From the NCBI GenBank assembly GCA_029237825.1, contig JAQZBQ010000005.1, positions 1 to 64,000 of the forward strand: a stretch of DNA of 64,000 nucleotides, read 5' to 3'. The position numbers and the translations under genes were made by a program. Source of the DNA: Bacteroidota bacterium (GTDB lineage Bacteria > Bacteroidota > Bacteroidia > B-17B0 > Aurantibacillaceae). Below the pieces are notes generated by a model. It had not been told where the DNA came from and searched no databases. It worked only from the letters and a program-made list of their open reading frames with translations. Each line of letters opens with the position of its first letter. Position 1 is the first letter of the stretch. Shown piece by piece: positions 3,256-6,768 of the stretch.

Positions 3256-4077
3256 TTAATCAGTATGAGAGGAATTTAGTTTCATCTCCTCAAACAGCTT
3301 AAGTCCTTTTCTAATCCTAATTTCCCTATTCGGATCAGTGACTACCTTTGCTATTTTGAAAACCGGATGGACATTTAAGGAAATTGTTTTTTGGTTTGAG
3401 TTAAATTTTATAGTTGAACCAATAAAACAAGTGTTAATGGCATTTAGCTGCGTCGAAAACATTTTTGTCTCAGTTATTTTCAGTTCAATTCCGTTGTAAA
3501 GTATCGTACCCGTTAAAGAAATATAGTTTTTCCGTGTATCAACAGTAACTGCAATTTTCCCCATCTTTTGCCGAAGTTTAAGAAGTTGAAAACTGCATTC
3601 CATGTCACCAGAAATCCATTCATTCTCATCAATTTCCAATATGAGTTTATTATCACTATCAAAAAGTCTTAATGACAAATTAATAGCACCATTTTCACTT
3701 TGACTAAGTTCAATTATTTTTTCCTCGTCAATAGTTATAATTTCATTGTCATTAATAAATTCGTTGCTGCCCACTGATAATACCAACTGTTTTTGGTTAA
3801 TTTTCAATAGTCCATTAACCCGTCCCTTTTGTATATTTATTGGATTTTTTTTTAAATGTCTTTGCTCTTCTAATATCATTGCACCAACAGTAGCTTCATG
3901 ATGGCAATATGGACATAGGCACATCATGTCCTTAAATCTATAATGAGGATCTTCTTTTGTGTACGGAACAATATGATGATATTCAACTATCGGTCTCCCA
4001 CATTTGCAACAACCAAATCCAGCTTCTTGTCTTAACTGTCTCTTGATTTCCGCGGGGAATGTTTCTCTTTCTTGCAT
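3256..4077 (-). CDS. HNH endonuclease, PtuB-like partner of the adjacent AAA ATPase
   Basis: Predicted Zn-dependent HNH nuclease, probably the DNA-cutting partner of the upstream ATPase. Counting from ATG 4077, residues 2-30 read QERETFPAEIKRQLRQ then GFGCCKCG. A CxxC zinc pair (C23/C26), the HNH core EYHHIVPY (H34/H35) and a second zinc pair with trailing histidines, CLCPYCHH (C55, C58, H59, H60), are all intact. Residues about 90-273 form a long uncharacterised beta-rich domain, making the protein larger than a minimal HNH domain. A GTG at 4170 would add 31 residues and overlap the ATPase gene by 23 bp. I prefer ATG 4077 because the family usually begins just before the FPAEIK segment. Role in defence is inferred from the gene pair. 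Confidence 0.8.
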   Translation of the reverse strand: MQERETFPAEIKRQLRQEAGFGCCKCGRPIVEYHHIVPYTKEDPHYRFKDMMCLCPYCHHEATVGAMILEEQRHLKKNPINIQKGRVNGLLKINQKQLVLSVGSNEFINDNEIITIDEEKIIELSQSENGAINLSLRLFDSDNKLILEIDENEWISGDMECSFQLLKLRQKMGKIAVTVDTRKNYISLTGTILYNGIELKITETKMFSTQLNAINTCFIGSTIKFNSNQKTISLNVHPVFKIAKVVTDPNREIRIRKGLKLFEEMKLNSSHTD

Positions 4078-4147
4078 ATTAATATTTTTATCACTGTTTG
4101 CAGCCACGAAGATGTCGTTAACACTGATAGGCTGATGTAGGTTGTGT

Positions 4148-6517
4148 TTACTCTGAACCAATTTCAACACCTATGCTTGACAGCAATGCTTCATATTGTT
4201 CATTATCCTTTGCTTGGATTTTGTCCAAGATGAATGTTGCTGTTTTTTTCATTTCAGGTATATCAATTGGAGTCATGCTTCTCTCAAATAACCCCTCTAA
4301 ATGCGAAAATTCATTGTTAATTCGGTCTGTCATTGTGGAAGCCTGTCTGTTGTTACCGAAAAATTTTGTCAGTTTTTCAATTTGGTCGTTTGCATTAGGA
4401 TATTTGTAATAAAGAAACGCTTCTAAGAATTTTCGAGTGTTGTTCCCAAAGTTGTAAAACAAATTGTGTTGATTTTCATCATCTGCATCAGCAGTTGAAC
4501 ACATATAAATTTGATGAAAAAGAAAATTGAATTCAGTTACATAATCTTTCAAATATCGTGGCATCAATCTAATCCTACTGAACTCTTTTTCTCTTGAAAT
4601 CAAGAAGTAACCACATAGATTTTTATTTAAAGCATTTGGTAACCGTTTTAAATATTTTAAAAAATCAAGATTATGTGTAGAAATGAATATTTGCTCAAAT
4701 TCTTGCCTGGTAATTATTTCAGCGTTTATAAGGCTGTAAACGAAGAAAATATGATTACTGTCCAAACTTGAAATTGGATCGTCGATCCAAATGATCGGTT
4801 TGCTCCCTTTGGTTTCAACATCTTCAAGTTTAGCCATAAAGTAGCAAAATGCAATAAGGCTGCATTCTCCTTCACTTAAGTGATGAGCTTTCTTCCCGCT
4901 TCTGACAATCTCAAACCTTATTTTTTTATCTGTTTCTTCTAATGCTTGTAGTGTAAGAAAGTCGTGTCCGAAGAAGTTATTTAGGTATTCATTTACTTTT
5001 AACGCTCCTTTTTCCTCATCTTTCATCATGCGTTCTTTATCTTCAATCTGTACAATTTGTTGCTGAATTTTCTGATCTACAACATGTTTATTCTGTGCTG
5101 CAGTATCCGAAGTATCTTTTAAGATTTGAATTCTTGCTGTAACAGCTGTGTATTGGATTGTTTTTACAAAATCGCTTACTTCTCGCAATCGCAAAAGCTT
5201 TTTTGCTTCGGTTTGTTCGTTTCCTAAGGAATTACTGTAACTGTTTGTTTGAGTTCTTAAGTCCTCAAATTTTTGCCAGCAATCCTCTAGTTGTTTACTG
5301 TTATCTATTATATCTACAAATGTTTTAGCATTTAAAAGGTCATCTTTTCGTACTTGAAGACTCGCTTTAATCCTATTTAATTCCGACTTTATGCTGTCAA
5401 TTGCTTTTTGACGTTGAAGAATTAAATTATCTAGATCAGAATGAAATTTTAAGTAAAATGCACTTTTATTTATTTGTAATTGAGTGCCAACATTTAGAAT
5501 CAAACTTTCAATTTCAGAAATTAAAGAATCAATTCCCGTTTCCAATTTGGCAGATTCTTCATCAAAATGACTATCAAGTTCTTTCCAGCGTTCTTCCGAT
5601 ATATCGTTATCACAAAATGCACATTTATCGAGTTTTTCCTTGTGTATATGCCTACCTTCTTTAACCCAACGATTAAGAATAGCATCTTTTAAAAGCTGCT
5701 CGATTTTATTGGAGCTACTAATTGGTTTAGTTACAAGTTCTTTTGCTCTTATATTAAGACTTTCCAAATATAAATTTGGCTTTGCAATTGTTTGAATGTC
5801 AGCATTTGCTCTTTCATCAAGTAAATGAAGTTTTTGTGTTACTTCGTCATCTGTAAGCGGTCGAAATGAATCAGCTAAAACCGTTTCAATATCCGATGAA
5901 AGCTTCGCTTTAGTATAGTTTTGGTCGCCAAATCTATCAGACTTATACTTTATGCCTGTGGTTCTATCTAAAGCTTTTGTAGTTAATTGTTGGTCTAATT
6001 GACTATTCTCCACTTGAAATGTTTGTAAAGCATTATCAGCTATTACATTAACATTTTTAAGTTCAAGATAAAAACCACTTTCATTTCCGTCTTCGTTAAT
6101 TCCTAAATCGCTTCTAAGGGATTGTATTTCTGCTTCAATAGTCGCGTTACCACCAATTATTGCAAATGGTGTAATGCTTTCATTTGAATTTACAATAAAA
6201 CGGAGATTATCTTTTACAAAGTCTTCATTAAACACTCGGATTTTCTTTCCGTGTGCAGTTAAATTGTTTTGCGTTACATCGACAATATCTTTAAGGCAAA
6301 CTTGAAACTGGGGACTTTCATACTTGTCGGAAATATTTCCTGTTTCTAAAGCTCTGACAATGCGAGAAAGTGTTGTTTTTCCTGAGTAGTTCCTTCCATA
6401 AAAAATATTTATAGGTTTAAATAAAACTACATTATTTCCGTCATCTCGAATACTAGTGTCCCAACTAAAATTTTGGAAAACAGCAAAATTATTTATGGAT
6501 TTGAATTTTGAAATCAT
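4148..6517 (-). CDS. SMC/RloC-like AAA_13 ATPase of a putative Septu-type defence module
   Basis: This 789-residue ABC/SMC-type ATPase is split by a long coiled coil. It carries Walker A GRNYSGKT (41-48); a zinc-hook-like CAFC (299-302) inside the coiled-coil region; the signature LSEGE (S548-E551); Walker B with WIDDPISSLD (D579/D580); and an H-loop STHN (613-616). This architecture fits the AAA_13 family, which includes PrrC and RloC, and also the large ATPases paired with HNH nucleases in Septu systems. The C-terminal part holds RKFLE (R695, E699) and, 44 residues on, FSH (H739), which matches the Arg-x3-Glu...His order of the PrrC anticodon-nuclease triad. The HNH gene follows directly downstream. 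The gene is visibly more AT-rich than flanking genes. Defence function is inferred. Confidence 0.85.
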   Translation of the reverse strand: MISKFKSINNFAVFQNFSWDTSIRDDGNNVVLFKPINIFYGRNYSGKTTLSRIVRALETGNISDKYESPQFQVCLKDIVDVTQNNLTAHGKKIRVFNEDFVKDNLRFIVNSNESITPFAIIGGNATIEAEIQSLRSDLGINEDGNESGFYLELKNVNVIADNALQTFQVENSQLDQQLTTKALDRTTGIKYKSDRFGDQNYTKAKLSSDIETVLADSFRPLTDDEVTQKLHLLDERANADIQTIAKPNLYLESLNIRAKELVTKPISSSNKIEQLLKDAILNRWVKEGRHIHKEKLDKCAFCDNDISEERWKELDSHFDEESAKLETGIDSLISEIESLILNVGTQLQINKSAFYLKFHSDLDNLILQRQKAIDSIKSELNRIKASLQVRKDDLLNAKTFVDIIDNSKQLEDCWQKFEDLRTQTNSYSNSLGNEQTEAKKLLRLREVSDFVKTIQYTAVTARIQILKDTSDTAAQNKHVVDQKIQQQIVQIEDKERMMKDEEKGALKVNEYLNNFFGHDFLTLQALEETDKKIRFEIVRSGKKAHHLSEGECSLIAFCYFMAKLEDVETKGSKPIIWIDDPISSLDSNHIFFVYSLINAEIITRQEFEQIFISTHNLDFLKYLKRLPNALNKNLCGYFLISREKEFSRIRLMPRYLKDYVTEFNFLFHQIYMCSTADADDENQHNLFYNFGNNTRKFLEAFLYYKYPNANDQIEKLTKFFGNNRQASTMTDRINNEFSHLEGLFERSMTPIDIPEMKKTATFILDKIQAKDNEQYEALLSSIGVEIGSE

Positions 6518-6684
6518 TGTTTTCTTTCATTAAGTTATCGGGTTTTAAATTGACCATAATTAGCTTACATATGTATTTTTATCACCCTTGCTACACCGAA
6601 TAAAGCTAGTCTGAAAGTTTCATTATCTAATTAACCAAAGCTAAACATTTTCTTTATTCAATAAACCTCTATATATAAAACAAA

Positions 6685-6712
6685 AAAGCCCCGCTGTTTC
6701 CAGCGGGGCTTT
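6685..6712 (-). terminator. Strong intrinsic terminator after the OmpA gene
   Basis: A 12-bp perfect GC-rich stem (AAAGCCCCGCTG at 6685-6696 with CAGCGGGGCTTT at 6701-6712) has loop TTTC. Six Ts follow on the minus strand. It ends leftward transcription from 9132 and insulates the ATPase/HNH pair from it. Confidence 0.9.
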
Positions 6713-6768
6713 CATCAATAGATTTAATTTAAACCGAGGTTTCGAGAGCCTCAACCTCCGGTTTAAAC

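Follow-up and report, generated by a model that had tools for sequence, protein, structure and literature searches.

A probable RloC anticodon nuclease gene and its probable chance HNH neighbour in a member of the Aurantibacillaceae (Bacteroidota)

RloC is an anticodon nuclease in which a coiled coil with a CxxC zinc hook splits an ABC ATPase of the Rad50 type, and its members range from 658 to 897 amino acids (PMC2610378). The Rad50-like part silences the nuclease, linear DNA or DNA breaks activate it, and the cleavage of anticodons disables the tRNAs (PMC3874168). Cleavage of the tRNA anticodon with excision of the wobble nucleotide has been published for the proteins of G. kaustophilus (GkaRloC) and A. 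baylyi (AbaRloC), and rloC often lies outside restriction-modification (R-M) operons (PMC2610378; PMC3874168); the A. baylyi protein is activated without R-M proteins (PMC3874168). GkaRloC has a zinc hook at C288/C291 and a catalytic triad, R692/E696/H737, proven by mutagenesis (PMC2610378). A survey of HEPN proteins placed the RNase domain of PrrC and RloC in this superfamily, with the motif Rx4-6H (PMC3710099). PrrC shares the ABC motifs and the HEPN anticodon-nuclease domain, but it is half the size (341-416 amino acids), has neither coiled coil nor zinc hook, and is linked to a type Ic R-M enzyme (PMC2610378). In Septu, a gene for an ABC-type ATPase (PtuA) lies beside one for an HNH nuclease (PtuB); PtuA and PtuB act as a pair (PMC11555353) and the activities of both are essential for defence (PMC13096335). 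Finally, PADLOC includes PDC-S06, an unnamed candidate for single-gene defence, calls of which were merged into DefenseFinder system names in one B. cereus study (PMC11811056).

The stretch of DNA analysed here, referred to as the window, comprises 64,000 nucleotides at one end of a contig from a Bacteroidota bacterium of the family Aurantibacillaceae. A preliminary description, made from the sequence, had read two neighbouring genes on its reverse strand as a Septu variant with an ATPase that might derive from RloC. The ATPase gene is a real open reading frame (4148-6517, reverse strand) encoding 789 amino acids from an ATG start, a size within the RloC range. The protein matches the PDC-S06 model of PADLOC over its full length (1031.6 bits, residues 1-785 of 789) and the Pfam family AAA_13 over nearly all of it (437 bits, cut-off 36); the PADLOC model of PrrC matches residues 496-770 (E=1.1e-12), the match to RecF is weak, and none of the PtuA models of PADLOC reaches E<=0.1. 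All the ATPase motifs reported beforehand were recovered: Walker A (GRNYSGKT, residues 41-48, at 6374-6397), the ABC signature LSEGE (residues 547-551, at 4865-4879), the Walker B/D-loop DDP (residues 579-581, at 4775-4783), the switch histidine motif STHN (residues 613-616) and the zinc hook CAFC (residues 299-302, at 5612-5623), each encoded on the reverse strand. The first four are essentially invariant in an alignment of 67 homologues; in the hook, which lies in the loop between predicted coiled-coil helices, both cysteines (C299 and C302) are invariant. The gene was annotated as rloC, for a Rad50-like ABC ATPase that carries a zinc hook and ends in a HEPN/anticodon-nuclease domain, on the basis of this alignment and the PDC-S06, PrrC and AAA_13 matches.

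One feature had been overlooked in the preliminary description, whose mention of RloC features was correct and understated. The C-terminus of the ATPase contains a complete anticodon-nuclease/HEPN triad, formed by R695-x3-E699 (RKFLE, at 4421-4435, reverse strand) and, 40 residues further on, the predicted catalytic H739 in RINNEFSH (at 4301-4324, reverse strand), which fits the HEPN motif as Rx6H. R695 and E699 are invariant in all 67 aligned sequences, and H739 is absent solely from two sequences on contigs that end early. Set side by side by published residue numbers, the triad lies within 3 residues of that of GkaRloC (R695/E699/H739 versus R692/E696/H737) and the hook C299/C302 corresponds to C288/C291. 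Elsewhere in the Bacteroidota, relatives of about 25% identity retain the hook, and also the triad where the sequence is complete; in this comparison the sequences of loci L025 and L027 stop short of the triad, and the row for L116 represents a wrong ORF.

The predicted structure has the same architecture. The AlphaFold model of the ATPase (mean pLDDT 82, pTM only 0.48) consists of a split Rad50-like ABC head, a long coiled-coil insert with long helices flanking the CAFC hook, and a C-terminal helical bundle carrying the triad. R695 and E699 share one helix and R732-H739 lies at the end of another, in a region where residues 736-749 have a pLDDT below 50. A structure search with the model returned the heads of Rad50 and SMC proteins as best PDB matches, with no solved RloC or PrrC among the matches listed, and a sequence search of the PDB with the ATPase profile gave coiled-coil noise only. 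Because the hook, triad and ABC motifs are conserved, the predicted fold agrees with them and both PDC-S06 and PrrC models match, the ATPase is read as RloC. It has every RloC feature that a sequence can reveal, and no structural difference from RloC was found; the HNH gene downstream happens to be present. As is often the case for rloC, the gene lies outside an R-M operon. Assignment to PrrC was ruled out by the 789-residue length, the hook and flanks that are not of R-M type (the HNH gene and an OmpA-family gene). We consider it very probable that the gene encodes an ordinary RloC, complete as a single gene; the HNH gene probably arrived independently.

The HNH open reading frame follows immediately downstream, also on the reverse strand (3256-4170, 304 amino acids if read from its GTG). 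The intact Cys/His motifs described earlier are indeed there (CxxC at 54-57 and 86-89, H65/H66 and H90/H91), and C54, C57, H66 and C86 are invariant in 59 distinct members of the family. Its homologues, found on plasmids and in one phage, occur singly, encode about 245-295 amino acids and start at a point near residue 32 of the ORF. The true start is thus likely to be the ATG at 4077, giving a gene at 3256-4077 and a protein of 273 amino acids, with the GTG called 31 codons too early; consequently, the 23-nt overlap with the ATPase gene becomes a 70-nt gap, and the idea of overlapping, translationally coupled genes was rejected. The Pfam HNH model scores 19.2 bits, under its gathering cut-off of 21.4, and PDB searches with the HNH profile gave weak HNH-domain matches only (IscB, McrA); the protein folded alone has a pLDDT of 31. 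A scan of viral contigs yielded 109 relatives. The plasmid and phage homologues have toxin-antitoxin, replication, transposase and phage genes as neighbours, and no ATPases of RloC type. The HNH gene, probably a chance neighbour outside the RloC system, is not a PtuB; by the Pfam result, the homologue starts and the viral-locus scan, it belongs to an unrelated stand-alone family carried by phages and plasmids.

The question of whether the two genes form a pair was addressed from both sides. Across 79 loci with RloC, all in named genomes (up to 6 kb each side where the contig allows), no relative of the HNH gene adjoins RloC; many of these loci encode proteins 75-82% identical to that of the window; one weak match to the HNH profile lies about 5 kb upstream of RloC in locus L074. 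Conversely, a search with the RloC profile found no RloC near the viral HNH relatives in the best 80 of the 109 loci, and the HNH gene is found in none of the 86 other genomes of the host's family. Widening the search to the order added no genomes to the 87 of the family. A functional pair is therefore unlikely, and the HNH gene most likely stands beside RloC by chance. Nevertheless, it could be argued that RloC has recently captured a phage-derived HNH DNase, forming a two-effector operon in which the sensing of DNA ends would lead to cleavage of both tRNA and DNA. The genes run in the same direction, are separated by 70 nt and are similarly AT-rich, with no terminator predicted between them, so that co-transcription is possible, and RloC relatives do gain other downstream partners, such as SbcD. 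We regard this operon as improbable, since the arrangement was seen in one genome only, the HNH family is stand-alone elsewhere, and RloC proteins of about 80% identity occur without the HNH gene.

The Septu variant, in which the ATPase would act as a PtuA recruiting the HNH protein as its PtuB nuclease, is less probable still, to the point of being hardly credible. It draws on the adjoining, co-directional ATPase and HNH genes with their intact Cys/His motifs, an arrangement that is the same in Septu. However, in addition to the missing PtuA match, the PADLOC PtuB1 model matches the HNH protein over residues 33-68 only (36 residues, 11.8 bits, E=0.047), the ATPase already has its own predicted RNase site, and the pairing is not conserved: the combination recurred nowhere in the collections searched, an outcome that the preliminary description had itself named as refuting its reading. 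Of the preliminary reading, the RloC part thus holds and Septu membership falls. Equally hard to credit is a DNA-repair ATPase of SbcC/Rad50 type without a role in defence. In its favour, Rad50 is the best structural match and RecF a weak one. Against it, the locus in the window lacks an SbcD/Mre11 partner, the nuclease triad at the C-terminus does not vary, the gene is an accessory one, present at full length in 3 of the 87 genomes of the family, and its relatives adjoin R-M genes.

The genomic context is that of an acquired island, as had been proposed, in view of its composition, its patchy distribution and the different genes that sister genomes carry there. The GC content is 31-36% over 3.5-6.5 kb, against 39-47% in the surroundings. 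Two sister genomes, whose adjacent OmpA-family protein is 89-91% identical to that of the window, can be aligned as far as 6679-6682 and differ from there on; the right-hand edge of the variable insertion coincides with an intrinsic terminator belonging to the OmpA-family gene upstream (6684-6713, reverse strand). Since the sister genomes carry different genes past this terminator (an unrelated ATPase with hypothetical genes in one, a fatty-acid desaturase in the other), the RloC/HNH locus is a variable spot. This, together with the lack of recurrent pairing, makes RloC and the HNH gene best read as separate arrivals. The flanking repeat arrays that had been cited for the island exist, but on the HNH side only. 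A 491-bp tandem repeat (positions 1-1139) recurs in scattered fragments across many contigs of the host genome and therefore does not mark the island, for which reason the arrays were rejected as its borders; a 22-bp array (2776-2847) is local. The window starts at a contig end, inside repeats that many contigs share, and no left border was fixed. Pieces of the 491-bp repeat are also present in a sister genome, and several copies lie at contig ends. Between the two arrays, the reverse strand (1648-2349) encodes a 233-amino-acid protein with no convincing Pfam match, whose family is represented in 8 of 20 genomes from this genus and is multicopy in some.

Defence and mobility genes abound around the RloC relatives. 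HsdS, the type I specificity subunit, adjoins RloC upstream in 12 of 62 relatives, and other neighbours include HsdR/restriction helicases, integrases, BrxL and further defence genes. In five loci (L073, L074, L079, L093 and L103) the end of RloC overlaps the start of an SbcD-like gene by 4 nt, followed by SbcC in L074, L093 and L103; in L074, HsdR lies 2 nt upstream of RloC. This arrangement, which would couple the translation of a break-sensing tRNase to that of a DNA-end nuclease, looks like a recurring RloC-SbcD(-SbcC) operon. In three loci of flavobacterial type (L069, L070 and L071), a DUF2130 gene follows RloC after 18-35 nt. The RloC of Chlorobaculum thiosulfatiphilum (L110/L015) is split near residue 339, within the coiled coil, into two called ORFs that are 227 nt apart; either the gene is broken or the protein consists of two subunits.

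By analogy with published work on RloC, DNA-end sensing, tRNA cleavage and a role in defence are expected of the window protein. It would act as a dimer, with a Rad50-like ABC ATPase that bears a coiled-coil/zinc-hook arm and, at the C-terminus, a HEPN anticodon nuclease, which the ATPase and hook would hold silent until the protein meets DNA ends, whether these arise by restriction, during phage replication or through DNA damage. Hydrolysis of ATP would then free the nuclease, which would cut tRNA anticodons and stop translation in the infected cell. RloC would act alone in this, as a single-gene, break-triggered stop of translation. A type I specificity subunit is encoded elsewhere in the host genome, and a link in trans between both is possible.

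The analysis removes a false Septu variant from consideration: the locus is not a new two-gene system of Septu type, and the window ATPase is very probably a further member of the known RloC family, with a probable chance HNH neighbour. The RloC-SbcD(-SbcC) operon looks more interesting than this finding itself. With regard to PDC-S06, the residues of the ATPase suggest that it corresponds to RloC; at least in this large clade it carries the RloC signature, namely the zinc hook and the R/E/H triad, and the PDC-S06 counts may be RloC counted under another name.
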